Shown here: piece after piece, positions 6,445 through 54,999 of the stretch
Position numbering within the stretch: the first letter of the stretch is position 1
How the letters are laid out: each line of letters begins with the position of its first letter
NCBI GenBank assembly: GCA_964019165.1
Contig: OZ025282.1
Location: forward strand, 6,655,631-6,719,630
DNA from: Mastigias papua
Taxonomy: Eukaryota > Cnidaria > Scyphozoa > Rhizostomeae > Mastigiidae
Reading direction: 5' to 3'
DNA length: 64,000 bases
Notes under the pieces: generated by a model
The model's database searches: none
Told to the model about the DNA's origin: nothing
The model's input: the letters and a program-made list of their open reading frames with translations, nothing else
Translations under genes and position numbers: made by a program

Positions 6445-6594
6445 CTAATCATATTCATTCACCCATCGTTTGATCAAATGGTGAGCGAGTGCGTACTTCC
6501 CAGGAGCTATCTGTACTCTCTCACCAGCCGCAAAAGCTTTTGCTCTGTCTCTCGAGATCAGCCTAACTGCTTCATGCTTGTCAAACCATGATAC
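6445..6594 (-). CDS. NUDT13: NUDT13-like terminal exon with stop
   Basis: The 150-base exon follows the acceptor TATTTCAAG (AG at 6596-6595) and ends with a TAG at 6447-6445. Its reading begins VSWFDKHEAV, the usual WF segment after the Nudix fold, and ends with the conserved helix YALAHHLIKRWVNEYD. It joins the 9246-9568 exon in phase 0. It is too short to stand out as an open frame and was found by looking for the missing family C-terminus. The intron before it is 6595-9245. Confidence 0.93.
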   Translation of the reverse strand, partial: VSWFDKHEAVRLISRDRAKAFAAGERVQIAPGKYALAHHLIKRWVNEYD

Positions 6595-7803
6595 CTTGAA
6601 ATACAATAAAGAAACAATTAGTAAAACAGTCTAGACTCCTCAAGTGCCACAATTGGAACAACAGAAGCTTACCTGTCTCTAAACATTCGTGGAAGTAAAT
6701 GGATAAAGTGCTGATAGACAGGCTGCTACCACCACAATACATGATCAGAGAAATGTGTATACAGCCAAAAATCAATTCGTATTAGTAACTATTTTTAACT
6801 CGCACACTAAAAACACTTGCGGTACAAACAATGCACTACTAATTTTTTCCAACGTTGAGTTGCATGGCTTACACGCTAAACAGCAGCAAGAAAACGCGGC
6901 CTGCTATTACCGTTAATCTTCGAATTAGCTCCCTGGTTCCAAAAGGCTCCACAAGTTGCTACAGTGAAGGAGGAATGTGTACAGTAATTTGCTTTCGCTA
7001 TAATTGGTGCCAAATCAACTAAGCGCGCTATTTTATGCCAATTAAATTCATTAGGGCAGCAAAAACACTAAGAATCTTTTCAACTGGACGGAGGAGGAGA
7101 CTATAACATTGCAAAATTCGTCTTGGAAGCAAAGCAATCATCTTTAATTAGCCTCTTCCCCAAATCAAAACAGCCTCATTTCCTATCTGTTCTCTTTTGG
7201 CTCAGTTTCATTTGGTTCTGACCGTTTACACGGGAGCCAAACGGTACGGTTCCACGTGGAACCATCTCTGTAGCGGAGCCAAAAGAGCACGGATAGCAGT
7301 TCCAAACTAGAACGGTTCTCGTGTAAACGTTATGCCTATCTGTGCCAGTTTCAGAACGACTCCATTTGCCCCCCGTGCAAACAAGGTCTAAACTTGAGCA
7401 TCATTTTAAATCAAGGTTTTTACCATCCTCTGTGACAAGGGCATATTTGAAGGGCGTTTATTATTTGAAGCTCTAGCATGGGAGCTTATTCAAGGAGGAG
7501 CTTTTTCCGAGAGGAAGCAATGCGAAGATTTACTCTACCTCAAAGTATAGAGGAAAACAAAGCGTACCATGAATTGTAAGGCTCTATAAACACTTAAACT
7601 ACATGCTTTTTATAAGGAACCACTCTATTAGTCAGTATGGATAGCTAGAAATTTAATTTGTGCTTTTAAATATGACCAGTTGTACATAATCATTATATTC
7701 CTATGTTATAAAGCTTTACTGTAATATATCATAGTTTTAGACACAGGACCCTCATTGATAACAGCACTTCATGTGCTGAAGAGGTTACCCTGTATAAATA
7801 TTT

Positions 7804-7853
<50 letters not shown>

Positions 7854-10800
7854 CTGGTACACACTAATGTCATATACTATTTGTCTTTCTATTAGTGGAG
7901 TTATCTTCTTGAGCTTTGACAACAACAAGTTTCTTCAAATCTCAAGCACTTTCCTAAGGATTCTGGCTGAGTGCAGTAACACAGTCTTTTGCAACTCTAC
8001 TATCTTGGTATTTATTCCAATCTCCTTCAGTCTTTTTGGCAATCTTGATGGTGTTGTTCCGAGTGCTCCAACTATAACTGGAATTACTTTCACATTTTTA
8101 GAATGCCAAAATATTTAAAGAACATATAGAACTAAAGGAAAACTCCCTAAGGAGCTTTTCACTTTCAAAATTTTTTATAACACCAAACAATCAGGAATTA
8201 GGAAGCTGGTTCCATTCTTTTGCAGCCAAACTCCGAATACATTGTTTGTTATGCTAGTGGAAAGTCCTTCATTTTTCATTGATCTTGTGTTACAGCCAAA
8301 ACTAAAGGAAAAGTTCAGCAATGTTTTACACGCGTCTGTACCATTTTATGGCACTAATTGTGTGCTGAAATTAAGGAACTTTTAGTACTACCATTTGGTC
8401 ATTGGGGATCCAAAAATAAGGAACTTTTGGAACTAGGCCTTGGGCAAGGTTCCTTGTAAAATCAAGCGTGCAACTTTTGAGGAGTGAGCTATTCGGTCAC
8501 TATGGATAGCGAGTACTTTAGTTCCTGGCATTCAATATGGGGATTTTTACCACATTCTCCATCAAATAACATGCATGATCTAGAAGAACCGAAATGATTT
8601 CTCATGCTGCTAAGTTTCATGTGATCGTAAAGAAAATCATCTTCAAAATAAGCTCAAGAAGTAGAACGCCCTTTCACAAATTTACTTCTTTGCATTGCAT
8701 TATCCAAACTTAACAAACAATACAAGCAAAATGCGCGCGCTGGATAATTCAGGTATGATTATTTCAGTCCAGAAAACAAGCATAGAGTAACATACGAATA
8801 TCCCACAACGCAACTAACTTCATAGCAAACTAGGCAGACAATTTTTTTGTATTTCATTGAGTCAAATAAACCGGAGTAGTACCATAGTGGTTAGAGCATC
8901 CGCAACACAACTGGGAGGTCGTGGGTTCACGTCCAGGCTGAGTCATACCAAAGACACGTACGAATGGAGTGAGAAAGTTAAACACGCGTAGCTACTAGGG
9001 GACTGGCTGCCTGCCGTAACCTTCACTGCACCAGCAGACGTGTGGTGCAGGGCTGCAGATAAGGTGTTAAGCATCGCCCTATCGGCATTTACGCAGGAAA
9101 AACTTTGAACTTTGTTTCATCGAATCATATTTAAATTTTAGAAACAAAGTTATTCGTAAAAAACTTAGAGCTGAGAAATAAATGATCTACTAATGTAATA
9201 AGCTACCAATAAAAAGAAAACGAAATAATTAAATAATCTATTTACTTCCTCTAGCTCTTCATCATCGATTTGAATATCCATGTGCTCTGCTGTTGCCATG
9301 CAACCAAACATGATAGTTGAAGGAAACGGCCAATATTGTGACAATACATAACGAACGTTTGTAACTGGTAAACCACACTCTTCAAGCATCTCACGTTTCA
9401 CCGCCACTTCAAACGATTCCCCTGGCTCAATATAGCCAGCAAGGCAGGTGAAAAGCCCCGTAGGGTACATTGGCTTTCTTCCGAGTAGCATTTTGCTGTG
9501 ATCAGGTGACAGCACTAATGCCATAGTAACTGGATCAACTCGAGGGTAGCATGCATGATGAGAGTCAACTGAAATGCAGTAAACAAGACATGACACTCAA
9601 TGCTGTAAAATAAAAGAAGCAAGCCTAAACCCTAAATTATTCTCCAAGAATGGGCGCAGCTTTGATGTATTGGGACAGTGTGAAAAGAGGAGCCACAAAC
9701 AGCTTCGTCCTATACTGTTTGCGATATAACGTGTACTGTATCTGTAAATCTCTTTAGGTCAATTTTATCAGAAAGTCTATTCTGAAGCATCATTCAAATA
9801 AGCCCTCAGTGTGCTTGAGTATGTGAATAGGAAGTATTGGGAAATTTTAGGGGGAGGGCAGTAGCCAAATGCCACACTCTGGTAGATTCTTCTCTACAAT
9901 CAGCTACGTCACTACGGAATCCCATGAGAAGCGAGCGCACGCGCTACTGGTCATTGCGAACAACCACTACTGGCGTTCGGCAGCGTGTGATTTGCGTCTG
10001 ACAAGAGTCGTAAGTACTGTAATTTATTTATTGATAATGATCCGTATTCTTTGTTATAGTTATATAAAACCACTTGATTGATCAAATTGTATAGTTTGCT
10101 ATCGATTGTCCCTTTACGCTAGAGGGCCTGTTGCTTTATTTACAGGTTTCCACAAACATTGAGCCTAATCGATCGAATGGTTTACAAAAACTCTGGATAC
10201 AGGCAATATTGACCTATTGCCACTATTGCTAACGAATGAATGTTATTTTCATCCGTAGAATTGAACCAGTTGTTGAAACGCTGCTCCACCGGAGAACAGA
10301 AGTTTGCCTAACGGGCATAGTGAGAAACGTCCAGCGGACATGCACATTTGCTAGTAATCTGCAATTGGCATTTGCATCCCACGAACTAACCGTTGTGTAT
10401 TAAGCTAGGTTCATTACTTACACCAGCGCTACCAGGGACCTTAGCAGTTTTGCCAGTGAGGTAGATTTATTGCTTATATTAATTCTACCAGAGACCCTGA
10501 AAGTTTACCTAACGGGCACAGTGACCGTAGCCACGTGGCAGAATGATCTCTCGTCCACCGGACATGCACATCTGTTGGTAATCTACCATTGACATTTTCA
10601 TCCAACGAACTAAAGATTTTATCAAGCTAAGTTTATACCTTATACGAGCTTTACCAGGGAATTCAGCAGTTTGCCTATTACATAGATCTATTGGTATACC
10701 GGCTCTACCAGCGAACCTAAAAGTTTGCCTAACTGGCACTGAAAGTAGCCACGGGGCAGAATGACCTCTCGTCCACCGACCATGCACATTTGCGAGTAGT

Positions 10801-13800
10801 CTGCCATGGACCTTTTCCTCCAAAGAACTAGACATATTTTCAATCTAGGTTTGTTGTTTATACGAGCTCTGCCAGGGAACTTAGCAGTTTGCCTACGAGC
10901 ACTCCCTACGAGGTAGATTTATTGCTTATACCAGATCTACCAGATCACCTACACATGTGCCTAACAGGCGTATTGAAAGTAACCACATGTCAGAATGTTC
11001 TCTCGTCCACCGGACATGCACATTTGCGAGTAATCTGCAACTGACATTTTCATTCAAAGAACTACACATTTTATCTAGCTAGGTTTATTGCTTATGTCAG
11101 CTCTGCCAGAGAACTTACAAGTTTGCCTACCAGGCATGATGAGATCACCACAGGCCAGAATGGCCTTTTGCCCACCGGGCATGATACCTTTGCAGGATAT
11201 GCAGTTTTCGTCTTAGCCCACAGACTGAAATCGTGTTTCTAATGAATATATGGCAAACCTCTCCCGGAGAGGCTGAAAATGTAAAAGTGATGCATGATGA
11301 GATGGATGATACTAAGCAGAACGATTTTAGTCATTTGTATGTAGGTAGAAATTACATGACTCGGGAAAAGGGCCCATGTGTTGTATACTGTTTGTTAGTT
11401 TACGTAACTCTAAGTATCTTAGATTGATACATTACTGTAACATAAACAGACAGGCTAACTGCAAGTATTAAGTAATGTCTCTCCCCTCTTTTTGTGACAC
11501 ACTGATCGCATTTCACATTCAAAAACCGGATGACAGCTTAACAGGACGGGGGTACATGATAGCAGCTGTTTTACTGTGAGAGAAACAAGTTATTTAGTCG
11601 ATTGCGTCTTGGCGAGAAACAGCCCACCGTACAATGTTGCCCGTCAGTGTGCTTTTGTGGCAAAATTCGAATGATCTTTTAGGTTCAATCACTTCATAAG
11701 ACTTAATAATGTAGCTTCATACTTCCGGCTTAGCGACATCTCAGGAACTTGTCAGTTCTCCATGCAGAACATCCGTCTACTATAGTGCACAGTGGGTAAT
11801 GTTTGGTTTGCATACTCTCTAGTAGGGTAGCAACAATTCTCTCACACTGTGATTTATAACGACTAGTCATTGACAGTCACTACTCCGAAATCCTAACTCC
11901 AGGCACCATAGAGGAAACTATGCTGAATAATGTAGAAAGTGTGCAGAATTCCCGATAGTAAATTCAATGATATTCGCCCAAATTATAAACTATCATGTGC
12001 ATGTCAGTGTGGCTTTGTTGCTGGCAAGGTTCTTTACATTTGCCATGTTGCAATAAGAGCTAGCGAATGATGAGAAGATACCATCTTATGTCGCAAGGGC
12101 CAAGATCAAGTTCTATGCTTCCATTATTCGATATGTGTATAAATAGATACAAACATCATACTGAAGACAGTATAGATGTATTACTACAGGATGTCATGGC
12201 GTTATTGACCTTACATATTCGTATTGTGGCATTCTACTTGTCAATCTGCTACGCAATCACTTGACTACTGTATTTGTTAGGTTCATTGTGTCATTCTGAG
12301 GAAATAATTGAGCACTCTACAGAGATAGCCATGACGCCATGCTAATACTACGTAATAACTGGAGGAACAGAAGTCTCCTTTCAGATGACTTACATAGCCT
12401 ATTGGATAGAGGCCATCCCCCTTTCTCGGTGGTTTTGAGCTTTTGCATTATCGACAGATACCATAAAAAATTTATTTTTACTAAAATGAGTTCATTTGAA
12501 TTTATTACAAAGTTGTCACTATGGTCAACTAAAATGGCAATTCTCCTTTTACTATGCTCAAGAATGCTCAATTCCATTCAATTTTGCCGCTGTTACTGCT
12601 ATTGCTTTTACGCAATTATTATTAAACAAGTTACTTAAAATTAGACAAAATGCCGCTTTTCAACAGCAATATATTGTAGTCAATAATAATAGTAATCATT
12701 GTAGACATATGTGTGGAGCATCATAAGTGTTAGTATCAGAGGCCAAAGTCGTATTGATTTTCTTTTGCTGATTAGACCCTTTGCCGCCTACAGCCTATTT
12801 TAGGCAGACTGGATTACTTCATTAGCTATTGCTACATGAAATGCCTCCTTGAGAGCATGGGAAGCTGTTTTTTGATCACACTTAATCAGATGCTCTTTGG
12901 TTTTTTGAGTGTGAAAGAACCTGGCAATTAGGAGGGAATGTGGAAAGAAGTTTTTTGAGACTAAGCACTTAACCGCTTACCAAGCCTATGTTCCTACAAC
13001 TATGAGCAATGACAAACACTATTTCTACTACCAGCCATATGCATGTATTATCTGTCAATTTATAAGTGGCATAGAAATGGCTGATATTTCCATCAATTGG
13101 CCGGTTTCCATAGAAAATTAGCATCTACGCTGCATGTGAACCTTCTTGTAACGATAAATCTTCCGCAGAATGGATGATGTCCAGCGCATGTTCCCTTTCC
13201 GGGAAAAAAAATTTCAGCCATATACTGTATATATAAATTTTACTTTTCTCGAGTCTTAAGACTCAGTTTGATAGAGGGAGCAGCCAAATTGGCTATCTCT
13301 TTTGTCATTGTCCTTATTTTAGCATTTAAGAATATTGCCAGAATTCTGGTTTGGTTCTTATTTAAGTTTAGCCTATTAGGACTATTAAGTAATGCAACCT
13401 CCTTTCTATTTCTCATACAGTTCTACATAACTAATCGAGACATATGGCGACTACTGTATATCTCACCAGATCTTCAATTAAAATCCCTCTGTCCTACGAA
13501 GCTGTTGGTTAGCTTTCTCGGTCAGGTGCCAGTCTTAACACATGATTGCACCTTGCTTCACATCAAAGAACTAAAACCTCATAACAGGCTTTTTAGCATT
13601 CTCCACAAAACTCTACTACCAGGGAGAAAGAATCTTTGTGAAATGGGTCGGTACACTGATAACGCCAGTTGGCATATATGCTGGTGCACTTCTCCACATA
13701 CGTGTTAGGTTACTGTAACCTCTGCAGTGGAAGACCCAATTTTGCTTTGTGTAATGTTGCACATGATTAGCAATGGACTTATTCATCTTGTAGTTGAGGT

Positions 13801-14337
13801 ACAATGCCAATAGTTGCTTTACCGTTATATACCATCACCCAACTGGCAACAAGGGTTAAAGAAAGAATTATATGTTGTGCTTTCTGATTTATAATAGTCG
13901 TAACGTCCGGATGGGATACCCAGAACACAATATGTTTTGTTAAACTCAGACTTTAAATGTCAATTATTTCGATTATCTCTTAGAATAAATTTGGATAATC
14001 AGTCGTATTGCAATGCGTTAGATGCATTTACTTGCTGTTACTTGATGTTTGAATCTCAATTGGAATGCTATATGCGCAAGGTAACATTACCATAGCGCCC
14101 CTTAAATTACGAAATTACCTCAAAATTCTCACTAGGTATCGCATATAGAGACTCAGTCAGAGACGCTGCGCTGTTTTAAGCGTTACTTATGTTGATTTGA
14201 ATTAGTAGTGTTAAAATTACTTTAAAAATTATAACATTCCGTTTAATTTGATTGATTGGATTTATTATACGTTGTTTGTGTAGATGTGTAGTAATCTGGT
14301 ACACGTGTTTGTGAGATACGAGTCTTAGAGATATCTT

Positions 14338-14372
<35 letters not shown>

Positions 14373-17300
14373 TACATCACTGTGTAAGTTTAGCAGTTGC
14401 CCTTTCTAATTTGACTTCTCTCCTGGGATACTTATATCAGTCCGTGAACTAGAGAATAAGGAGTCGTAACTGTCATTACACTTATTTTTTATATATAACA
14501 AACTATGTTGAATTAGATATTATGCCTTCGCCCTCATTTGTGTAAACTTCGATTTGCACAGTAATGTTCATAACTGGTGCACACTAGTGGCTATTACTAG
14601 CTCTGCAAACTCCCCAATGCTCCTGTTTTTATTGTGTAACTATGCGTTACATATTTCTTTCGCCTATAATGGGTTCGTGATCACAGGGCTTTAAAGTCTC
14701 ATGGGATTCCGTAGTGACGTAGCTGATTGTAGAGAAGAATTTAAAAATTAAACGAGACTTACCTGTAAGTTGATGTTTGATTGTAATTCTTCTCTACCAT
14801 CAGCAGGAACGGAGGAATCACATGCCCTCCCATAAACAATTTTCATACCATTCCCACCCAGTATTCCTCCGTCCTGCTGATGACGAGCAATGTTTCATTT
14901 TCATTCATTTTCATTTCAGTCATTTAATAATTATTTATCTATTTTACTATCTTCCTGTGATCACTCACGCTTTAAAGAATGACCAGTAGCGCGTGCGCTC
15001 GCTTCTCATGTGATTCCTCCGTTCCTGCTGATGGTAGAGAAGAATTACAATCAAACATCAACTTACAGGTAAGTCTCGTTTAATTTTTAAATTAGTTGGC
15101 ATTTTCGTACATTCTGGGAAGATTGCATCAACGAAAACATGAATAGTTGGCAAATCTACCATCCATGCCCCACCTAAAAATCTGCAAAACTGTTCCATTG
15201 ATTGGAGTCTGCTTTCAAGTTCTAATGATTTCCTCTGTGTCGATACAGCGACACTATTCAAGAAGACAATTAACATCATACAGAATTGTATCTGGGCTTG
15301 CAAATTTGCAAACAATACCATAAGCTTTCGAGGCAATATCTGGGGGAAAATTTATGAAGCGATATTCCAATTGAAATTTGATGTACCTTGCTCGAATTAG
15401 AGTCAAAACTGAAATGCATCCCCTATTAAATTCACTAAAACAATAATGAGTAAATGATCGTTAATAAATTGTCCTAATTAGATGAGTAAATGCAATATTG
15501 ACCAGCTACTCAAACGCGGCTAGGTTGTCAAAAAGATGACAGTGCTGTCGCATCTGTAGCATGTCTTTCAACAATTGAAGCATTGATTTATCTTGCAAAG
15601 CAGAATTCAAAACAAATAAACTTAACTTGAATGCAAATAATGAGAATCACTCTTTTGTATACAAGCTTCATTACATCGATGCAGATAACTTGTTTTATTC
15701 TATACTAAGCTATGCGGTTGAAACAACGGCCTAGCTGAATACATAATTATACGTCCATCAAGCAAACAGCAATGACAATGAGTCAGCCAGAGAGTACGAT
15801 GCTAACTATCTTTATGGCGGACATTCAGTTCGAATTCACTACAATGCCGTTGCATTATCCAATAACATGATATAACAACAAGGCTAATCTAGAAGATAAC
15901 AGGGGCGATACCATGATAGCATATAAGTTCTGTGGCATTCAGATCTAGCACTTCCGACTATAGGCAATTTCTAAAATCTTTCGAGTATGCCTGTCAACGA
16001 TAATGTTGGAAAAATTGATCTGGACCATGAATTCGGCTGAAACCAACAACCAGTATGTAAAGTAAATAAACGAAGAAGGAAGTGCCTTGGTCATGAAAAC
16101 ATCATGCCAGTAATTATTCTGTTTACAAGTCATTGTTGGCTGGAGATTACAAACTGGCGAGGTTTTTGTACTTCCGTAGAATAAAAATTGTTTCATACAT
16201 AACTCTCGCAATTAATTTGACAAAACCAATTACATGCCAATGACAGAGAATTAAGGGGCAGTTTCCTTATCTATGATCTTGAGGGGACCACACATCTCAA
16301 CATATCAAAGTTCATTTTATAAACCATACGCTTGATAAGGTTCGGGAGATTGCTAGGTGCTTGAAAAAAGAACATTCTGTGGCTTAACCCCATACCTACC
16401 TTTAGTTTAGTGCAGTGATAAAATGGCTTCGTGCAATGATGAACAGTAAAAGTGTGCAGTGATAAAACGTATTCACATGACTTTGAAGCAAAGGTTGCTT
16501 TGATTGAAGTATCAACTGCGATATCAACAGCAATAATCAATAACTATTCAGTCAATAACAATCACTAATCAATGTTCATTCCGTTAACTCTGCAGAAGAC
16601 TAATGATGCTCACACTAAAGGCGAAAACAAAGGTCAGAAAACTAAATAACATCTTGTTGACTACGCATACTACTCGGGAGAAAGGCTGACAAGAAGCTCC
16701 AGATCATAAGAGCCACTGATAGAAGATGATGCTATGTTAGCAAAAAAATACCTCAAAGCTACAATGATATGATATTTCTAAAAGACACGGCCTACGGCTG
16801 TGAAGCAACGATGCAAAGAGAACTGAAGAAGTGCAAACTTAGGAGTGAAATACTAATGTACGCCCATGCACATTCATAAGAATTCATGAAAAGTCCGTTG
16901 GTACTACAGAACTTCACTACAGCACGAAAAAGCGGCACATGTTTTAGGCATACTGAAAAGCTTTTTTCGTCCGACACTCGTCAGAGTATGAAACGTCGGA
17001 TAGGGACCGAAAGATGAACCGAAATATATAGCCACGTGCGGATACACGTGATATGATGAATAATGTGTTCAGTTAGCCGTATGATGGTGCCAAGTGGCCA
17101 ATCATACAGCTAACTGGACACATTATTCATCATATCACGTGTATCCGCATCATATTCCAATAGGAATCCATTTCGTAAGCTCATTCTTCACTGTCATGCT
17201 TCAGCCACCCTATACTTCAAAGCAAACCTCCTCGGGTTCCCAACCCAGTCATCAAACTAAAGATAATAGCAACAAGCATAAGCGTAGAGGAGGGGGCCAG

Positions 17301-18524
17301 AGGAGCTGCAGCCTGCGGTGTAGCTACTGGGGTCAGGGACGCCTATGCTGGGGGGCAGGGGGGCAGGGGGGCAGGGGGGAGCTGCCCCTCCTGCCCTTTC
17401 CAAGGACATAATTATTTTCAAGCAAAAGTGTTAATAATGCGCCCTCAATAGGAACCTTGCCCCCCTGCCCTCGGTGCAGGCAGGCATGCCTGACTGGCGT
17501 GAGTGTCGCATCACAATATTTCATAACAGCGAGCAAATTTGGGCAAATATTCTGAGTTACAGTATGTTTATGCTGAACTTGCCACACTAACAGATCATTA
17601 CTCAAAGCCAAATAAATATACAAGTTAAGTGCAAATATAAATAACTGTAATACAATGAATCATTCTGAGACTGTACTTGGAGCCCCAAATAAGCACCCCC
17701 CTCCGCTTATTAATTTTTGAAAAAATCCACCAAGGACATCCATATTCCAGACCCTGTTTATTATTTTAATGTCTGTAAATCAATTGAGTACTAATTAAAA
17801 TGAGAAAATGAGCTTTTCATTTTGTTTACAGGTGAAATGAGTAGTGAAACTCATCCATAGCTATTGTAATTAGAGAAATTTTGGACCCACCCCTGTTATT
17901 CCAACCCCCAATTTACTACGTAAATTTTACATACCTTTGCTTGTCCTACAGCTACCATTTGTGCATTTTCGTCTATAACCTCCATCAACCATCAATGACT
18001 TAGAACCACATTCAGGGCAGAATTGGTGGCTATTATGCCAAGCAAGTATACCTCGGGCCTGTGCAGCAATAGATGATTCCATATCATTCAGCCTCATCAT
18101 GCCAAAAAATGCACTTGTAAACTCAGCACTATCCTTGGTGACCTCTTTAACAAGGGATTCATCTAAATCATTGGCCAAATTAAGAGCAAACCAATCGACT
18201 TCTTCATTCTCACTTCCTAGGTAGACAGCACTACTAACTACATCAGCTGTAGAGCCTAAAACAATTGACGCTTCAGTGAAAGAAAGTGTCCTTAGTTCTT
18301 TGACATTACGCTTCCTTTCAATCATAAGTGGATGTAAGGATTTAAAAATCACATATCTGCTAGTTTTCTCCCTCATTTTGGCATCTAATGCTTCTTTATC
18401 CTTGCGCAAATGAGCACACCGATCCAGGAAACTGCCACTATAAAATGCTAGAAGGTCTGATGTTTCCTTGATACTTTCACGATTTTGCCATCCCTTTCTT
18501 GCATGATGGATTTTTTCAACTGTC
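6445..18524 (-). CDS. NUDT13: NUDT13-type NADH pyrophosphatase (Nudix hydrolase), exons 17935-18524, 9246-9568, 6445-6594
   Basis: This is a Nudix hydrolase of the NADH pyrophosphatase (NudC/NUDT12/NUDT13) family, whose members split NAD(P)H into NMNH and AMP; NUDT13 is known as the mitochondrial member. Three exons are read in minus order: 18524-17935 (N-terminal domain and zinc ribbon), 9568-9246 (Nudix box) and 6594-6445 (C-terminus). Junctions are GCAAAG|GTATGT to TTTCAG|TTGACT (phase 1) and GAGGAA|GTAAAT to TTTCAAG|GTATCA (phase 0). The sum is about 354 residues, close to vertebrate NUDT13. Similarity to NUDT13 rather than NUDT12 shows in WFALNL, LAWHNSHQFC, SQYWPFPS and the C-terminal YALAHHLIKRW. 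The four zinc cysteines are present, whereas I recall human NUDT13 having lost them. No start codon fits the first exon; the first in-frame Met is about 57 residues in, so an upstream exon is missing or is supplied by the glutaredoxin-like exons. Confidence 0.94.
7170..7395. mobile_element. MITE-like cluster of nested inverted repeats
   Basis: TATCTGTTCTCTTTTGGCTC near 7187 is mirrored by GAGCCAAAAGAGCACGGATA near 7288 (two mismatches). Inside, CCGTTTACACGGGAGCCAAA and the later AACGGTTCTCGTGTAAACG form a second inverted pair, and GGTTCCACGTGGAACC is a perfect short palindrome. No coding potential. This is typical of a decayed non-autonomous DNA transposon. Confidence 0.55.
7440..7560. repeat. 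Dispersed repeat shared with 57050-57150
   Basis: The phrase TAGCATGGGAGCTTATTCAA, then GGAGGAGC, TTTTTCCGAGAGG and GCGAAG, is the inverse-complement counterpart of CCTTCGCAATAGCCCC, CCTCAAATAAGCCCCCATGC at 57080-57120. A weaker relative (CCCCAAATAAGCACCCCC) lies near 17680. Confidence 0.5.
7570..7806 (+). mobile_element. 3' end of a non-LTR retrotransposon, same family as 23905-24790
   Basis: The last 70 bases (CAGGACCCTCATTGATAACA, then GAAGAGGTTACCCTGTATAAATATT) match the 3' end of the LINE at about 24747-24790 (CAGGGCCCTAATTGATGACA, CCTGTATGAATATT). Both run straight into an ATT microsatellite, the usual tail of this kind of element. The upstream part (ACTTAAACTACATG...) fits the end of an ORF2 with stops. 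Confidence 0.6.
7805..7850. repeat. (ATT)n microsatellite between two LINE tails
   Basis: About fifteen ATT units. It is the 3' tail of the plus-strand LINE end on its left and, read as AAT on the minus strand, the tail of the LINE fragment on its right. Confidence 0.9.
7856..8110 (-). mobile_element. 3' end of an R2-superfamily-like LINE (C-terminal domain)
   Basis: The minus strand reads VKVIPVIVGALGTTPSRLPK, then KEIGINTRIVELQKTVLLHS, ARILRKVLEI, a stop, and a final IVYDISV before an AAT tail. The TVLLHSARILRKVLEI segment corresponds to LLETARISRNTRG in the plus-strand copy at 4345-5830, so both appear to be the same C-terminal region of related elements. It is 5'-truncated. Confidence 0.65.
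8110..8460 (+). repeat. Dispersed repeat, inverse copy at 32270-32480
   Basis: ATTTAAAGAACATATA, AAAACTCCCTAAGGAGCTTTTCA, CACCAAACAATCA, ATGTTTTACACGCGTCTGTACCATT and GCACTAATTGTGTGCTGAAA all recur in order and orientation in the reverse complement of 32270-32480. This copy carries about 110 bases (near 8175-8290) that the other lacks, perhaps an insertion. No coding potential. Confidence 0.65.
8868..9110 (+). mobile_element. tRNA-derived SINE
   Basis: The head resembles a tRNA with an A-box TAGTGGTTAGAGCATCC (near 8885) and a B-box GGGTTCACGTCC (near 8933), the RNA polymerase III internal promoter. The body continues for about 160 bases and ends with AAAAACTTTGAACTTTG. The tRNA-like part cannot fold into a full cloverleaf with a proper acceptor stem, so it is not called a tRNA gene. 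It lies in the NUDT13 intron on the opposite strand. Confidence 0.65.
9246..9568 (-). CDS. NUDT13: NUDT13-like exon: catalytic Nudix box
   Basis: The 323-base exon has acceptor TTTACTGCATTTCAG (ends 9569) and donor GTAAAT (9245-9244). Residues run from VDSHHACYPRVDP through the Nudix box at about 9369-9437, which fits G-x5-E-x7-R-E-U-x-E-E-x-G-U exactly (GYIEPGE, then REMLEECGL). The family signature SQYWPFPS follows, where most relatives have SQPWPFPxS. It ends IDDEELEE at a codon boundary. All residues expected to bind the divalent metal (the REUxEE core) are present, so this looks like an active enzyme. Confidence 0.96.
9880..9965. mobile_element. Fragment related to the MITE at 14738-15093
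   Basis: ATTCTTCTCTACAATCAGCT ... CCATGAGAAGCGAGCGCACG, CGCTACTGGTCATT matches, inverted, AATGACCAGTAGCGCGTGCG, CTCGCTTCTCATG ... GTAGAGAAGAATT at 14980-15045. The sequence at 14695-14740 matches its other half (CCGTAGTGACGTAGCTGATTG) even better. Confidence 0.6.
10270..11200. repeat. Degenerate ~225-bp tandem array, about 4 copies, in the NUDT13 intron
   Basis: The landmark ACCGGACATGCACAT (with variants) occurs near 10335, 10559, 10777, 11011 and, weakly, 11175. A second landmark, GTTTGCCTAACGGGCA or a variant, occurs near 10303, 10504, 10728, 10955 and 11122. Between them CTACCAG and GTAATCTGC recur in order. Spacings are about 224, 218, 234 and 166 bases. The 108-residue open frame at 10509-10835 is a product of the repeat. 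Confidence 0.75.
14339..14370. repeat. Poly(A) run of 32
   Basis: An uninterrupted run of 32 A. It could be the tail of a retroposed sequence to its left, but I recognise no gene or SINE head there. Confidence 0.85.
14738..15093. mobile_element. MITE with perfect 87-bp inverted arms
   Basis: Bases 14738-14824 are the exact reverse complement of 15007-15093. The arms begin AATTTAAAAATTAAACGAGA and contain ACTTACCTGTAAGT, itself a palindrome. The loop of 182 bases has a second, partial copy of the arm motif (CCTCCGTCCTGCTGATGACG). The perfect match suggests recent origin or gene conversion. No target duplication is obvious: AATT sits at both outer ends as part of the arm. It encodes nothing recognisable. 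Confidence 0.8.
17038..17148. repeat. Near-perfect 48-bp hairpin
   Basis: GCGGATACACGTGATATGAT ... AGCCGTATGAT is mirrored by ATCATACAGCTAACTGG ... CACGTGTATCCGC with two mismatches in 48 positions, around a loop of about 15 bases. It may be a short MITE or a foldback element. The 105-residue frame at 17094-17411 starts inside it and is not supported otherwise. Confidence 0.75.
17935..18524 (-). CDS. NUDT13: NUDT13-like exon: N-terminal NUDIX-like domain plus zinc ribbon
   Basis: The 590-base exon opens after the acceptor TTGTATTCTTAG at 18525-18526 and ends at the donor GTATGT (17934-17933). It completes one split codon, carries 196 whole codons and leaves one base. The reading starts TVEKIHHARKGW, contains a lysine-rich predicted helix, then FKSLHPLM and WFALNLANDLDES of the N-terminal NUDIX-like domain, and IAAQARGILAWHNSHQFC leading into the ribbon. 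The ribbon reads C-x2-C, about 15 residues, C-x4-C (CPECG ... KCTNGSC), so all four metal ligands are kept. There is no candidate initiator at its start. Confidence 0.93.
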
Positions 18525-18989
18525 CTAAGAATACAAACAAGTTCCATATACACCTAACATAATGTCCTGCTGGATAACATGAATGCTGGGAAATTGTAAC
18601 AAAGAATGTCTATGTACTGAACACTAGCAGAAATCATAGATATGCAAAACTTTTGTACTAATCATGAATACATGGTATTTCCATATGATTTACATCCACA
18701 AAAACTTGACATCAGTCCTGGGTTAGGACAAAATCCAGCCTATGATGTTGTCTTTAAGCATGCACATCAAGCAATATGGATGTGATTATTTCATGCTATC
18801 TGGTTTTCTCTTCTCAGTTTCAAATGCATGCATGGAAATCTTCTAAGCTCCATAAAGAGTTGGCATTGTCTCAGGGAGAGGAACATTGCATGCAAACACA
18901 AACACTAAACAAAATTTCCTCAGCATTGGAGAAGTTAGCACAAAAGTGATAAATAGAAATCGGTGACTTCATATAAACTGAGAATTTTC

Positions 18990-19184
18990 CTAAAGTAAAG
19001 CAAAACACCTTTTCCTTTTAATTCTTGACAAAGAATTTTCAATTGCTTCTTCCAGAGCATCAGTAAAGACTTTATGTTTCATAAGAAACTTCCCATCCAA
19101 GTGAATCACTGGGATATCATATCTGTATTTCTCAAACCAGGCACTGTTCTCTTCTTTATCAATGTATACATGCTCTATATGACA
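18990..19184 (-). CDS. C5orf63: Glutaredoxin-like exon 3, with possible internal splice donor
   Basis: The exon has 64 codons plus TAG. It holds WFEKYRYDIPVIHLDG, the W-x3-Y-x2-DIPV signature, and the ALEEAIENS helix. Just before the stop, AAAAG|GTGTTT (exon end 19009, GT at 19008-19007) is a phase-2 donor. Using it would skip the last five codons and the stop and join the phase-2 acceptor at 18524 of the NUDT13-like exon. Between the stop and that acceptor the minus strand has no AATAAA or ATTAAA. Confidence 0.88.
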   Translation of the reverse strand, partial: CHIEHVYIDKEENSAWFEKYRYDIPVIHLDGKFLMKHKVFTDALEEAIENSLSRIKRKRCFALL

Positions 19185-20267
19185 CTGAAATGAAAGAAAC
19201 CAAGTTACAAACAGCATGTTATTTTCAAGGACAGACAAAGCAATAGCTTTTTTCTGCTGGATAAGAAGTTTTCATGTAGTATGTATACTTCATAAATTAA
19301 AAAATGTTGAGGTAGTTTAAAAACCTAACGAACACTGCTTCATACAGGAGGTAGAACATATAAAGAGTAAAATGAACAAAGGACAATATATTGAATCCAT
19401 CAATTAATATTTCTCAGGGCAGCTGGTCAAACTGGAATGAAAGGACTCTATTTCCAACCAAGGTGCATTCTGTGCAAAGCTCATGCCAGAGATTCGCTTA
19501 ACTATTCTTGCCTTCTTGCCAAGGTAGCACAAATAATCTATTATATTGTCATATGCCCATAGACCAATGCTAAAAACAAATCTCACACCAGTAGACCAAG
19601 GGAATGGCTTAGTCCAAATTGGATATCTCTGGCATAGGCTACATGGGATGCACACAGGATTTCCAAATGGTTGTTTAAATGTTCCAAACAGACCTCACCA
19701 TGCTCCTGTACTTTTCTAACTTGTCCTTTGCAACATCACAAAGAGGGCATTCATTCTATAAAAGAATAGCGAGGATAAAATGTAAACATACAGGAATCCA
19801 ATGGCAACAAAAATCCAAAAATAACTTAAAGGATAATATTTATCTGCGCTATAAAGCAATAATTTACACAAGAAATAGTTGAAATATATTTCTAAAGATT
19901 AATAACAACACAACCTCATATGAATAAACATTATACACTTATAGTATCTATCACATTGGCTATGGAAGTGTACCTTTGTAAATAATGTGATCACTGGTTT
20001 TTCATCTGGTGGTGTTGCATGAGAAAATCTATATTTGACTGAATTAAACTGATTTTCTCTAAGTCGACTTCCTAGACTGTCATTTGACAACTGCGGATAA
20101 AGCGAGTAATTTCTAAGCAAACGGGAGCTCAATCGAGATGACAAACTATTCCTGTACTTAAGCAACTTCTTTGCCATGCTTGTATTGTTCCCATGGTGAA
20201 ATATAGGCAATGATAAACATGCTTTTTCGAGATACTTATGGCAGTTAACCATCCTGTGGTATCCCAT
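18990..20267 (-). CDS. C5orf63: Glutaredoxin-like protein of the C5orf63/YDR286C type, exons 19974-20267, 19699-19755, 18990-19184
   Basis: This is a small thioredoxin-fold protein of the glutaredoxin-like (DUF836) family; its relatives have a C-x2-C active site but no established substrate. Exon 1 gives 98 residues from the first ATG after an in-frame stop. An internal Met at residue 31 precedes KKLLKYRNSLSSRL, rich in Arg, Ser and Leu without acidic residues, which resembles a mitochondrial targeting peptide. The exon ends in the strand KPVITLFTK. Exon 2 (57 bases, 19 codons) carries NECPLCDVAKDKLEKY with the CPLC site. Exon 3 carries the acidic HVYIDKEENSAWFEKYRYDI, then PVIHLDG with the cis-proline loop, then an amphipathic helix, and stops with TAG at 18992-18990. 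Junctions are AAAG|GTACAC, TTTATAG|AATGAA, CATG|GTGAGG and TTTCAG|TGTCAT, all phase 0. The two-gene reading gives 181 residues. Confidence 0.9.
19699..19755 (-). CDS. C5orf63: Glutaredoxin-like exon 2: CPLC active-site microexon
   Basis: The 57-base exon lies between acceptor CTTTTATAG (ends 19756) and donor GTGAGG (19698-19697). Its 19 codons read NECPLCDVAKDKLEKYRSM. The Cys-Pro-Leu-Cys pair and following helix match the family consensus C-P/G-L-C-D-x-A-K. Both ends are phase 0. Confidence 0.9.
19974..20267 (-). CDS. C5orf63: Glutaredoxin-like exon 1: targeting region and first beta strand
   Basis: It has 98 codons from ATG 20267 to the donor GTACAC (19973-19972). The open frame begins after a TGA about 60 bases farther upstream, and GTG or CTG codons lie between, so 20267 is chosen as the first ATG. 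A later ATG at residue 31 starts a more classical mitochondrial presequence and may be the true start. The exon ends VITLFTK, the strand that leads into the active site. Confidence 0.8.
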
Positions 20268-23904: not shown

Positions 23905-24790
23905 ATCACATAGCTTAGCTGAGGTGGAAAAACCTCTGGCAAGTGATATGGCAAATATTGCAAAATGGTTAGAGAGCAAAAGGCTTATCATAAATTTGAA
24001 AAAAGGAAAACAGAACCCATGCTTTTTGGTACTGCCAAAAGGCTACACTCTAAAAATGATTGAAAGGATAGGATGAATGATCACATGATATAGTTTGTGA
24101 GTGGCTGCAAGTATCTTGGAGTGTTTTTAGACCTTAGCCTGAATACGAAGGAGCATCCACAAAAGACCTTAAGAAGTGCAGCAGGACGAATTAAGCTTTT
24201 TAAAAGAATGAGGCAGTCACTTACGAGTCATGCAGCTCAATCAATATACAAGCCGATTATATTACCGAAAATGCTATATTGTTCTACACGGACCCTCAGA
24301 TCTCAGACACAATGGGCAAGAAATTCGAAAGCCTTCAAGCAAGAGCCATTAAAATTATTCATCCTTGTCCAGAGTATGATCAAGAACGTGGGTATATGAC
24401 GATACTAAACCAGAAAAAATTCAAAGCAGGACTTATAATCCTCACGTATTTGCAAGGGACTAGCATTCCAAATTTTGCGGTCTTTGGTGAAAGAGTTAGC
24501 CACAATTATGGTATAAGGAGCAATAACGCTACATTACATGTTCCAAGGGTCAGAACAGAAGCTGCAAAAAGTCCTTCTGGTTCCAAGGTCCATCTTGCTT
24601 TAACGAACTACCAATCGACATTCGAAGTTTAAATTCCATTGTTACCTTCAAGCATAGACTTAAAGAACATCTGAGAGGATTGTACTAATTTTTAGCTACA
24701 GGATTTTTAAGTATATTGACGCTGATACGTTTCTTTGTTCAAACAGGGCCCTAATTGATGACAATACTTGCAGTGTTGCCTGTATGAATA
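23905..24790 (+). mobile_element. 3' half of a jockey/CR1-like LINE ORF2
   Basis: The frame reads SDMANIAKWLESKRLIINLK, KTEPMLFGTAKRL, CKYLGVFLDLSLN, AAGRIKLFKRMRQSLTSHAA, then after one frameshift FESLQARAIKII, and near the end LPIDIRSLNSIVTFKHRLKE. These are the reverse-transcriptase thumb and C-terminal segments of a non-LTR element. It ends in an ATT-rich tail at 24785-24830. Open pieces at 24097-24399 and 24279-24632 are the two sides of the frameshift. Confidence 0.78.
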
Positions 24791-25480: not shown

Positions 25481-26015
25481 TTTATTTTACGTTATGGTGT
25501 TACGAATATCTAGTAAACTTTCCCGTTGATCAGTCATAACGTTTTCAACTTAGGTTCTACACTACCCGCAAAGCATTGAGAAATTGAAAACTCTCGTCCA
25601 ATCTAAAGTAGTTGGGCCATATCGTTAATATCGATAGAGATCCAAAATAGCTCCGTCAATTTGAAATAATTTAATAAATCAAAAGTTAAAGTCTTGCAAT
25701 TATACAGTTGTGAAGCTCTGATACTACAAAAATACTTCCAACGTTTATTTACTGTATAAAGCATGTTGTTAAAAATAATTTTTACACAATCAATAAAGAG
25801 GAGTCTCGGATTGTACCAAGGAGTTGCTTCTTAAACAAAATACATGAGTTCTGCGGATAACTGCAGGAGATAGTTAGGGCACATGAAATGGAGACGGTCA
25901 TCGATCCATACTCATCATCTCCATTTTATCATTCCCGAAAATCCTGCTGTCCTCATCCAAACAGCCAACAAAGCATATGAAGGCACCTAGTGAAGAGGCT
26001 GATAAGCTCTAGCTC

Positions 26016-26343
26016 GGATGGATGGGTGGATGGGTGAATGGGTGGATGGGTGGATGGGTGGATGGACGGATGGGTGGATGGATGGATGGACAGACGGGTG
26101 GATGGACGGATGGGTGGATGGATGGATGGACGGAGGGACGGATAGATGGATGGATGGATGGATGGGTGGATGGGTGGATTGGTGGATGGATGGATGGATG
26201 GATGGATGGATGGATGGATGGATGGATGGATGGATGGATGGATGGATGGATGGATGGATGGATGGATGGATGGATGGATGGATGGATGGATGGATGGATG
26301 GATGGATGGATGGATGGATGGATGGATGGATGGGTGGTGGATG
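26016..26343. repeat. (GGAT)n microsatellite
   Basis: The array is about 330 bases of GGAT units, pure from about 26180 and mixed with GGGT, GGAC and GGTT variants at the left. It is open in several frames (long WMDG or SIHP repeats), which are not genes. Confidence 0.95.
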
Positions 26344-26399
26344 GAAGATGGATGAAATAAGCATGTTATTGCTGAAGGACTGCTAAAGAAAATAGATTT

Positions 26400-29300
26400 C
26401 TTTGCATTCCCATTATTTCCACAACGTACCTCTCCTCATAACCTGACATAGTTTGGTATTTTACACAAATGTTTAGGTAGACTGACCATAAAACATATTA
26501 AACAGTTATGTGATGAAAGCACAGCTGGTGTGTTATAGAGCTCTATTTGCATACTGCAGGTAAAATAGAAAGAGAGAGAAGGGACATCTAAATTCTCAAA
26601 GAGACCCTCCCCCTCCCTCTCTACAGCGTCTAAATAGTCTTAAACTTATCGTACCCCCTCCCCCCTGATTGTCGACGTCATATATGTATGGTCCCTACAA
26701 ATTACGTAATACTGTATGTGCAGCAAGCAGATATTACTGCTATCGTGTTGTACATATGCAATGATTGTATTTTGTTAATATTCTATCATAGTACTAATAG
26801 CTTTAGATTTCATTATTTCGCTTTCTAATGCACTTACCTATTACAATAAATTGAAAAAATAAATAAAGCATGCTGATAACAGTAATTGATAATCAATCTA
26901 GGTAGGCATCACATCAGATAGTTTATTTGCCTATATATTAGCCTGTATATGTGCAATTTAAATTCTAAAGACCGTATAATATATCTGCCTTGTGCTGCAA
27001 GCCAGAACCAAGATTACCGGCTCATTGCCAATAAAGCAGATAAGAAAATGCTGAAGCAGATCTAGCTGTCATACAGTGTTACTGTATTTGTAAATAGACA
27101 ACTTGCAGTGAGAAATTTCACTCCAAACTGCTCAACATGCTTAATAAAATAGATAATGCTTACCTGGGGATTAGTCAGTAGTATCCATCGTGCTCATTAT
27201 TTAAGCCACAAAAGCTTAATGTATTCGTTATCTAGGTTGATATGAAAAAGTTTGCCATAGACATCTCACCATCATAGCAATTAACAGCGCACGGAATGAA
27301 AACGTCTGTATCTGCATATGAATGAAATCAAATGCTAAGATTAAAAAGTTGTCAGTTAGTCTTATATTTATAAACTTCTAATGTTACGTCACACCAACAT
27401 GATTTAAGTACGTGATGCCATTTAATTATCGTTAAGTGCTGGCAACTCTTGAGGCTTAATTGTAATGCAGAGTTTGATGGTAGCGTGCATGTCATACCAG
27501 AAAATCTGACAGGAAGCTCCAGGAACTTACAGAATTGTATTAAAAAAGCACGACAAAGCAATGGAAAATGAGGTATAGCTGCTTGATATTCTTGACGTCA
27601 TTCTTTTTCGATATTATTCCACTAACTCAAAAATACTCATTCAGTTGTATTCATTGATTGGAAAGGAGAATCGAAGAACGTAATTAAGAGAAACTATCCC
27701 CAAGGTGTTATGTTGTAATTATCTACCGCAACTCAAAATTCATAGGTTCACTCATATTCTAGAGGCACTTATACAGTTTGCAATAAGAAATGATTATACG
27801 AAAATCCTGATGAAAGAAGATTCCACTGCTTTTCATTAACTACTTTGTCTTCGCCTTTGCTTATTTGTGCCTTTTCCTATGGTGCTTTTAATACGCTCTG
27901 GTTCCTCGTTAGTGTTCCCTTATATATGCTTTCTATACCCTGTGAATTTTGTAATCCATATATTTTTTACTCTCTACTTTAGTTAAGTCCGTAGACTCTT
28001 CTCTATTTAACTGAGGATGACTCAAGTATGAGCCGAAATGTTTTAACTGATTTGTTGTTACCGGATATTTCAACCTGAAGCAATCTGGCTATGGCGTAAT
28101 TCATGGATTGTTCAACAAACTGAAGTTATGTTAATTCAATCATGGAAAACAATTCTTTCTATTTTTGTCGTCGTTCTGTTCGTAAGAAAATTGAAATATG
28201 TAAGGGACGTCAGGCTTCAAGGTAGTATTCCTAAAATATCTTATAAAAGATCAGTGAAACAAAAAAGCTTCCATGAAGCACATTGACCTCAGGTCATTTC
28301 TTATGCAATCAAGGCTTGCGTATCTTTCTGCATGGAGAGGAGAGGGAACTTCCTATGCAGACATACACTATGCAGACACTGCATTTAACAAAAGGAACCA
28401 AGAATCATCAAGTTCTTTAGATAAAGCCACAATATAACGGCGGCTAGTTTTTCCATAGTAATAGAGATGGAATTCAGAGTATCAAAATGCAAATTGGTTC
28501 TGAAGAACTAAACACCTTGAATTTCATGCAACTCTAAAAGATTTTGCTTGCGGAAAAGACGTCTCTTTTGATTAGCACAAAAGGCAGAAAAGGGCATTAT
28601 TGCAACATCATCCAAGATCACCTTTGATATTACAGTTTCCACAGCCAATAGTCCCACCTTTTGGTAGAAATGAATTTAGGCTGGATATCCACACTGAAAG
28701 CAAAACCAAAGTAATTTACTAAAAATGGTTACGTAACAGAATTAAAATATAGCTTTACTTTCATGTTTTTCATTCCGTAATGGCACTCCGCTCACGTGTA
28801 GAAACAGGGCATTCTGTATTTTTTAATCAACTCATTCTGAGTTTAAAATGCCCATAAGCATCAACAAATATAGCAGATGACAAACATAGTTGTTACTAAT
28901 CTGCAACAAGTCAATTAAGTCGCAAAATGTACTTTGTATAGTACTAAGTGTGCGTGCAACAATTGCAAAGAGCAAACAAGCCTAAATCAAAATGAACAGT
29001 ATTCAACATGGACAGAACTTTGCTAGATAAGTTGATGAAAACCTATGAATGAACTATCATCTGACTAGCCTACGATGAAGACAAGCTAAAACGCTACATA
29101 GGCGCTATCTCATTCCTTTTATTTATGCTATTCAAACCACTACAGGTCTTTTTTATAAGATTCTTTTGTTCTTTTTGGTCCAGCATTGGAACTTTCCTAG
29201 CCTTTTCATGATTTCAGTTTCAGCACGTTCTTACCCAAGACTTCCTTAGCAAGAATTTTTTGAGCTTTTGTACCACTACAGTGCTGAACAGAAAAGAGGC

Positions 29301-51099: not shown

Positions 51100-52010
51100 A
51101 AATCTTTACAACTATACAATCAAATATGCGTTAAAAGTTCATTTGAGGGACTAGCAAAACCTAGTGGTCTTATCAAAGGCAGAGTTCTATCGAGAAGGTT
51201 TCTTCCTTGAGTATCGAAAGAGGAGCAGAGCAGCAAAAAGTGTTCCTCATTCTCAACACCATCATTAGATGAACACATTGCATCTAGTTCATCTCTGAAA
51301 TTGTGTTTGAATTTATGAAGATTTAGTTTACTTAAAGGTAACTCTTAATCTGGTTTGGGATGATAAGCCCACTGGATCGTGGATACCGTAACGGATTTTC
51401 CAGAGGGGCGGACGAGTACTAGCAGTTTTGCTTTGAAGCTTGCATGGGTGAGTGAGGCCTTGATTAAATGGTCCAATTTGCTTCATTCCATCAATCAGGA
51501 TGGACAAAAGCTGGATTTAAACCTCTCCGCTCTAGGTCTTAGTTATCCAACGACATCCTGGTTTTAAACGACATTCTCTGGTTTTTAGTCCACAATTCAA
51601 TGACTTCCAAATCATGATTAAGGTCTGAAGCTGCTACCTTAGGATCATTACAACTCTAAAAATAGAGCGATCGTCGACAAAAAGTTTAACATTACACTTT
51701 AATTCATCAGTTAAATCATTTATATAAATTAGGACAAATAATGATCAGAGAATGGATCCTTGGGGCACCCCTGCTGATATTTCTCCCCAATCGGAACACT
51801 TTCCATTCAAAACAGTTCTCTGTCTGCAATTTGCAAGAAAACTTTTAATTAGAGAAAGGAGTAGCCTATAGATGAGACCATCTTGCCATACTCTACCAAA
51901 AGCTTTAGAAAGGTCAAGAAAGACAGAACGGATGTCATGAGATGGATTACAGTCAAAGGCCTGGAAAATATTGTTAGGTATAGATAGTAATTCCCAAAGC
52001 TCATGGACAC
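51100..52010 (-). mobile_element. Decayed jockey/CR1-like LINE, minus strand
   Basis: The minus strand gives the reverse-transcriptase palm: FDCNPSHDIRSVFLDLSKAF with the first catalytic Asp, WQDGLIYRL, SFLANCRQRTVLNGKCSDWG, then ISAGVPQGSIL (motif B), and later, after frameshifts, FRDELDAMCSSNDGVENEEH, FLLLC, the C-x(n)-HFLLxC finger found at the C-terminus of such ORF2 proteins. Stops interrupt it, and the YxDD region is deleted or unreadable. A SINE lies just upstream at 52109. Confidence 0.75.
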
Positions 52011-52108
52011 CAAATGCTCGTGGACGGTAAGGGGGGTTTGACGTTTGTATACTTATTCGCCACTTCCTGTAGTCATCCGCTTCTCTGATACAAGAAGCAT
52101 TAATTATC

Positions 52109-52410
52109 TCGTAGCGACAGCTCAGTGGTAGGACATTCGACGAACAGATTCAAGGGTTGTGAGCTCGAGTCCCATTCGGGTCACTAATTTTATCGTACTC
52201 ACTTCACAATGTTTGTCTCTGTCTGTTCTTTTATATCAGTGAGTCATGATGTCCTTGCTCTTACTTAATGTCTATTGTCCCTAACTTGGCCATGCGTAGA
52301 CTTATAGGCAGTGGGGGCAGGGAGGACAATGCCTCACAACAATTCGCTGACGTTGTAGCTTGTCTCTGTCGGAAGGGATAAAAAGTTAAGATAAAAAGTT
52401 AAGTCATAGC
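52109..52410 (+). mobile_element. tRNA-derived SINE
   Basis: The head GCGACAGCTCAGTGGTAGGA (A-box) and GAGCTCGAGTCCC (B-box, near 52170) resembles a tRNA gene whose 5' arm is altered. The body runs to a tail built of AAAAGTTAAGAT units ending near 52410. It differs from the SINE at 8868 in body and tail, so two families are present. Confidence 0.62.
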
Positions 52411-53945: not shown

Positions 53946-54811
53946 CTTTTGCAAATCTTTAGGCCATGGCACTAGTGGTAAAGCCGCTGACTATTGGAAA
54001 ATAGGAGACACAAAACCCTTCCCATAGTCACTAAAGCTGCCCTTGTAAAACTATGCCTGGCTTCAACTGGGAGCACTTCTTTCCTTTCTTCGTGTAAGGC
54101 TTTTGAAAAAGCATAAGTTACAAAAAGACTCTTTTACTGACTTTAGTCTAAATCTTAGTTCATAGAGTCTTCAAGCTATCTGGAAAAATGCCAACGTATC
54201 TACTACAGCGGGGCAGTTTCCCACTTGGCCCTCCTAAAAACTGCCACTGTTGCCATTGACTATGAAAATCTCCTTGATCAGTAATTAACGGTCAATACAG
54301 CATGCCAGATAATGATAAAAGATCTTTCTGTCAGCTACCTCTATTCCTCTCGGGATATGAGAATATCTGAAGTGTGGAAGCAATAAGGAAACTTTAATGC
54401 AATTGAGTGTCATGTACGTCCAAATAACATCCGTTCTTGACATACGGAATTCTGCTAAAAAATATTTTAAATTACTAGCAGTGAACTTAAAATGTTCCGT
54501 TCCTTCTTATTCATCTGTCAGCGATTAGTTTTTGAATACTGTAATTTTCTTTAATAGGTGCTTCAGTTGGTGTTGTAGCTTGCAATAAGCTTCTTTTCAG
54601 ATCTACTTGATCTCTACTTTAGATCTCTTTACGAAGAATATTTGAGATTTCCAATCTGTAATGCTATAGTACAAGTTATCATCTGCCTACCTTCGTTTAA
54701 GCAGGAAAGCACTGCACTGCAGTTTGCAATCTTATGTGTAGTATAACTTATTCTTGCATTGCAAAAGTATGCCATGCTGTATGACGTAGTATTCATTCAT
54801 ACGTTCCATCC

Positions 54812-54829
54812 CTCCCTCCCTCCCTCCCT

Positions 54830-54865
<36 letters not shown>

Positions 54866-54990
54866 CCATCCATCCATCCATCCATCCATCCATCCATCCA
54901 TCCATCCACCCACCCGTCCGTCCGTCCGTCCGTCCGTCCGTCCATCCGCCCGTCTGTCCTTCTATCCACCTACCCATCTATCCATCCATC
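54812..54990. repeat. (CATC)n microsatellite with CCTC and CGTC variants
   Basis: CCTCCCTCCCTC leads into CATC units and then CGTC units. It is the same tetranucleotide class as the array at 26016-26343 on the other strand. Open frames through it (SIHPSIHP) are not genes. Confidence 0.95.
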
Positions 54991-54999
54991 AATACCCCT

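Follow-up and report, generated by a model that had tools for sequence, protein, structure and literature searches.

A gene of the jellyfish Mastigias papua predicted to fuse a glutaredoxin-like domain to an NADH pyrophosphatase

A single nuclear gene of Mastigias papua very probably encodes a fusion of a glutaredoxin-like protein and an NADH pyrophosphatase, which would be a mitochondrial protein that most likely arose by the joining of two neighboring genes. Two other database records, P0001 and P0002, are fused in the same manner, and the join is therefore more than a chance alignment of reading frames. The structure of the gene, the fused homologues, the possible redox link between the two parts, and the end of the upstream part in related sequences are described below, together with the other pyrophosphatase and glutaredoxin-like sequences that were found.

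RESULTS

Structure of the fused gene

The window, the whole stretch of DNA that was analyzed, is 64,000 nucleotides in length. On its minus strand, six predicted exons (20267..6445) total 1590 bases, stop codon included, and would encode a protein of 529 residues. The gene spans 13.8 kb, each of its five introns is bounded by GT..AG, and an AATAAA is located downstream of exon 6, at 6144. The features of the model are as follows.

20267-19974, minus strand: exon 1, with the ATG at 20267, a basic N-terminal extension, and the start of the glutaredoxin-like domain
19755-19699, minus strand: exon 2, with the CPLC motif of the glutaredoxin-like domain
19184-19009, minus strand: exon 3, with the remainder of the glutaredoxin-like domain, ending in the phase-2 donor AAAAG/GTGTTT
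19008-18990, minus strand: read-through tail CFALL and stop, translated only upon retention of the fusion intron
19008-18525, minus strand: fusion intron of 484 bases, between exons 3 and 4
18524-17935, minus strand: exon 4, with the linker, a rudimentary NUDIX-like domain, and the zinc ribbon
9568-9246, minus strand: exon 5, with the NUDIX domain, including the Nudix box and the SQYWPFPST motif
6594-6445, minus strand: exon 6, with the end of the NUDIX domain and the stop codon

Exon 1 contains additional in-frame ATGs at 20252 and 20177, and a start at 20252 instead of 20267 would yield 1575 bases, 15 fewer. The ATG at 20267 is favored because, in the alignment, P0001, the frame of which is open at its own 5′ end, agrees with the window protein at the MGY start, at positions farther along the N-terminal extension, and in a C.KYL...CL.L stretch. 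The extension is basic by residue count, with 14 R+K and 4 D+E in the first 88 residues, and it may serve for mitochondrial import.

The critical join is that between exons 3 and 4. The donor sequence, GTGTTT, was regarded as weak in the preliminary description, as a judgment rather than as a computed score. If the intron is not removed, exon 3 continues into an in-frame stop that ends at 18990, five codons past the donor, and from there 465 bases remain to the acceptor at 18524. Candidate ATGs for an alternative first exon of the pyrophosphatase are present within these 465 bases, none of them judged convincing in that stretch. The claim that no AATAAA or ATTAAA lies between the two parts held for the whole 484-base intron, which also lacks ten more variants of the poly(A) hexamer. 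Dinucleotide shuffles of the intron were used to assess this absence: 0.43 AATAAA/ATTAAA are expected, with zero in 64% of the shuffles, and 2.2 are expected for all 12 hexamers, with zero in 7.5%. The absence of hexamers was set aside as proof of a fusion because shuffles can also contain none, making it weak evidence.

Several repeated or possibly mobile sequences were observed in the window. The 8.4-kb intron between exons 4 and 5 contains two 49-base arms at 17037-17149 that are 96% complementary and 15 bases apart. A similar stretch, with the translation THYSSYH.YPH, is also located near the NUDT12-like gene described below (L016 5165-5455), so the arms may represent a repeated hairpin or MITE-like element. 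Open frames at 24094-24632 (plus strand) and 51745-52149 (minus strand) resemble, by eye, remnants of retroelement reverse transcriptases, and short-period repeats at 25953-26435 and 54747-55111 translate as runs, e.g., of HPSI or WMDG.

Fused homologues in the databases

A protein search for CPLC-type N termini fused to a pyrophosphatase, which the preliminary description had proposed as a check, returned two full-length records, P0001 and P0002. The whole-protein search covered 5.8 billion sequences, of which only the 7998 candidates with the most shared words were scored. Nine matches were obtained at E <= 0.001, namely, the two fused records and seven plain NADH pyrophosphatases from bacterial, plant, or unnamed sources. 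P0001 (548 aa, encoded on one 1811-base contig) is 64% identical to the window protein, and P0002 (526 aa) is 56% identical. These two records, from two sources, possess the same four Pfam domains as the window protein in identical order. When the glutaredoxin part of P0001 was used as the query against proteins 0.55 to 1.75 times its length, only P0001 and P0002 were recovered at E <= 1 from 82 candidates; the protein searches require shared five-residue words, and more distant fusions can escape them.

P0001 aligns without gaps across the junction of 19009 and 18524, and the alignment of P0002 needs gaps in the linker. Past the join, identity between the linkers of the window protein and P0001 is low (3/11 residues). 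The P0001 record almost certainly derives from spliced RNA, considering that its contig comprises 1811 bases and the window gene extends over 13.8 kb with five introns. P0002 could be a transcript or a gene prediction, possibly a merged model. Both the GT..AG introns and the occurrence of the same join in P0001 and P0002 bear out the fusion of six exons and 1590 bases that had been put forward in the preliminary description.

Domains of the fused protein and a possible redox link

From the N terminus onward, the predicted protein would consist of the extension, a DUF836/C5orf63 domain with a CxxC site, a linker, a NUDIX-like domain, a zinc ribbon, and a NUDIX domain. The glutaredoxin-like half matches Pfam family PF05768 (Glrx-like, DUF836) over residues 93-166 with 62.5 bits (gathering cutoff, 26; E 4.8e-17). 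The NADH pyrophosphatase half matches PF09296, PF09297, and PF00293 with 25.4, 27, and 55.3 bits, respectively (cutoffs, 22, 24.8, and 21.1). The CxxC redox site is CPLC at position 101 in the window protein, CHLC in P0001, and CPLC in P0002, and a DIPV stretch is present in the glutaredoxin-like domain of the window protein. The Nudix box of the window protein is exact (GYIEPGESFEVAVKREMLEECGL at 417), and the SQYWPFPST motif at 449 differs from SQPWPFPxS at the third and last positions. The Nudix box, SQxWPFP, four zinc cysteines, and CxxC are common to all three fused proteins. Among solved structures, a sequence search found 1wjk as the only relative of the glutaredoxin-like half at E <= 0.001 (residues 90-166; E 1.4e-22). 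The NUDT12 chains 6o3p and 6scx were the best of 17 solved relatives of the pyrophosphatase half (6o3p: E 1.3e-62, with the best stretch at residues 107-351 of that part), and NUDT13 was not represented among these 17.

The two parts are joined by a linker of approximately 40 residues. Under our working hypothesis, the tethered thiol-redox domain would keep cysteines of the pyrophosphatase reduced or would sense the thiol state of the matrix, and this thiol link would tune the breakdown of NADH/NADPH. Such a redox-to-NADH link is plausible. The alignment of the three fused proteins contains 12 invariant cysteines, among them those at positions 212, 379, and 437 in the pyrophosphatase part. On the basis of these three sequences, the attached redox domain may act on the cysteines at these positions. 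Among seven unfused homologues aligned, a cysteine is found at position 437 in none and at position 212 in one, and all seven have a gap at position 379. The printed alignment to 6o3p (NUDT12) likewise lacks a cysteine at all three positions, the piece that includes position 212 being a weak 6-bit match.

The fusion could also be real without any redox link, the presequence and promoter being shared by two independent mitochondrial enzymes, and we give this arrangement somewhat less than even weight. It would be consistent with the complete domain set in each part and with the moderate-quality structure model of P0002 (mean pLDDT 67.7; pTM 0.54). In that model, the glutaredoxin part itself is of only moderate confidence, and the two parts are separated by a long stretch (residues 170-209) with a pLDDT below 50. 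However, the fusion has been retained among proteins that are only 52 to 65% identical, and all three fused proteins keep the cysteines at 212, 379, and 437, although three sequences are too few to lend this observation strength. A more far-reaching proposal, in the manner of a Rosetta stone argument, is that, in animals at large, the mitochondrial NADH pyrophosphatase has C5orf63 as its thiol-redox partner or regulator. The partnership would be covalent in the jellyfish, and matrix NADH/NADPH breakdown would be thiol-gated via cysteines 212, 379, and 437. We consider this proposal doubtful.

The end of exon 3 in related sequences

In a third search, for which the queries were the glutaredoxin part of each of the three fused proteins, 329 proteins were obtained at E <= 0.01 from 570 candidates; the best 120 of the 329 were listed, with a listable length of approximately 53 to 170 residues, and 17 were fetched. 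The matches listed include short frames, located for the most part on long contigs, in which exon 3 is followed by unrelated residues. Based on their contigs and unrelated tails, P0012, P0013, P0064, P0071, and P0098 were taken as genomic. The BLASTP matches of P0012 to P0001 (88% identity over 59 residues) and of P0013 to P0002 (90% identity over 60 residues) both stop at the junction arginine. For P0001 versus P0012, 23/27 residues are identical before the junction and 0/22 after it, and the corresponding counts for P0002 versus P0013 are 21/24 and 0/22. Compared with the spliced window protein, P0064 has 15/27 identical residues before the junction and 0/14 after, P0071 has 15/27 and 1/10, and P0098 has 18/27 and 1/23. 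P0119 has a stop at its end and no such exon end at the junction. Since a phase-2 xG/GT donor demands a T, the first residue past the junction must have a codon that starts with T. Such a codon is possible in 6/6 exon-3 frames (C in the window, L in P0012, F in P0013, Y in P0064, C in P0071, and Y in P0098), which were picked by eye and, apart from the window, compared at the protein level.

The tails read past the donor bear on whether two products are made, i.e., the spliced fusion and an intron-retaining glutaredoxin-like protein of approximately 180 residues that ends in CFALL. The position of the stop directly past a weak donor would permit this, but the intron contains 0/12 of the poly(A) hexamers (with the shuffle expectation given above). 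Moreover, the read-through tails of the relatives vary in both length and sequence, and the lack of conservation of the CFALL tail makes it less likely that a conserved separate form terminates at the window stop. Production of both forms thus appears quite unlikely.

It is extremely improbable that the locus represents two separate neighboring genes, with an open join due to chance and an unseen first exon of the pyrophosphatase: the weak donor, the in-frame stop of exon 3 itself, and the short separate glutaredoxin-like proteins found among the matches listed for birds, reptiles, Capitella, Anneissia, and Nematostella (at approximately 53 to 170 residues) would fit such an arrangement, but P0001 and P0002 are fused with identical domain order, and the 465 bases between the parts hold no convincing start exon.

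Other copies in the genome and unfused proteins elsewhere

The genome (G000; 346.8 Mb in 172 contigs) was searched for further copies of either part of the fused gene. With the glutaredoxin-like part of the window protein as the query, no second glutaredoxin-like copy was found in the genome, the matches being confined to the three exons at this locus. Exon 4 matched its own locus and a NUDT12-like locus; one additional match, at E 0.29, was taken as chance. The NUDT12-like pyrophosphatase locus consists of two pieces on the minus strand of contig C20 (C20:4180428-4180976 and 4168340-4168662), which were taken as one gene. A piece of this locus matches NUDT12 at E 8.9e-52, and the last frame ends in -PKL, presumably a peroxisomal-type end. 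In the single NUDT12-like open reading frame that was scanned, only the zinc ribbon was detected at E <= 0.001, and no ankyrin repeats were. In this assembly, the Nudix exon of the locus contains an exact 32-base tandem repeat that breaks the frame (L002 1560-1900, minus strand; C20 ~4168500-4168660), which could reflect a mistake in the assembly, an allelic variant, or decay of the gene. Because of this break, the genome may have no intact NADH pyrophosphatase gene other than the fused one. The basic N terminus of the fused protein and the presence of a separate NUDT12-like locus suggest that its pyrophosphatase part may be a NUDT13 orthologue.

The short Nematostella protein among the matches listed is P0094 (isoform X2; 75 residues). 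P0010, a stand-alone homologue of 146 residues, has a EukProt name styled like that of the fused P0002, which means that an unfused copy may also exist in a relative.

Two other contigs were noted in the course of the genome analysis. Contig C172 (16,455 bases) is mitochondrial and has a cox1 match. Frames for cox2, cox3, atp6, nad genes, and cob were recognized by eye, with TGA read as tryptophan; ARAGORN reported two tRNAs, one for methionine and one with the anticodon tca, and a long frame near one end was taken for a DNA polymerase. Scyphozoan mitochondrial genomes are linear, and the contents of contig C172 indicate a medusozoan, probably a scyphozoan. Contig C121 (~135416-214708) contains a second type of cox1, as four long copies plus a short piece. 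To us, this type looks dinoflagellate, and it possibly comes from a dinoflagellate symbiont, which would fit a photosymbiotic species.

DISCUSSION

The origin of the fused gene is most likely the joining of two neighboring head-to-tail genes. In the upstream gene, a donor shortly ahead of the stop codon would have come into use and would have been spliced onto an internal exon of the downstream neighbor, which would thereby have lost its own first exon and presequence. A fusion with an NAD(P)H pyrophosphatase, retained in diverged lineages, provides a concrete partner and an assay for C5orf63, for which we know of no assigned reaction, and hints that this little-characterized glutaredoxin-like protein acts jointly with NADH breakdown. 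No description of a fusion between glutaredoxin/C5orf63 and NADH pyrophosphatase/NUDT13 was found in the literature searched, as judged from listings.

The glutaredoxin-like part resembles the C5orf63 homologues, yeast YDR286C (PF05768, DUF836), and 1wjk (C330018D20rik) in the whole domain, the CxxC site, and the DIPV stretch. We take YDR286C to be the yeast counterpart of C5orf63, and "YD286 protein" names among the matches listed support this. The C5orf63 homologues listed are separate short proteins (within the searched range of approximately 53 to 170 residues), whereas the domain in the window protein is joined in front of a pyrophosphatase. According to the available portions of the respective reports, a CRISPR screen of oxidative metabolism captured C5orf63 among other genes (PMC12187934), and YDR286C has a specific genetic interaction with a deletion of rvs167 in a study of mitochondrial biogenesis (PMC2648979).

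The pyrophosphatase part can be compared to two known enzymes. NUDT12, a peroxisomal NADH pyrophosphatase (6o3p and 6scx), is related to it, and the NUDT12-like locus of Mastigias papua is located on C20, separate from the fused gene. In the available portion of its description, mouse Nudt13 is mitochondrial and hydrolyzes NADH and NADPH. Mammalian NUDT13 shares with the window protein an N-terminal extension, a NUDIX-like domain, a zinc finger, and a NUDIX domain with the Nudix box and an SQPWPFPxS-type motif (PMC5626787). The mouse protein has a predicted leader of 27 residues, and that portion of the description mentions no glutaredoxin domain, whereas the window protein has one (PMC5626787). 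The available part of a 2019 survey gives 21 NADH diphosphatase architectures (UniProtKB 2018-08), with PF05768 or another glutaredoxin domain in none of them (PMC6856373). Ankyrin_NUDIX-like_zf_NUDIX and other rare architectures in the same part of the survey have an extra N-terminal module placed before the same enzyme, as is the case in the window protein (PMC6856373).
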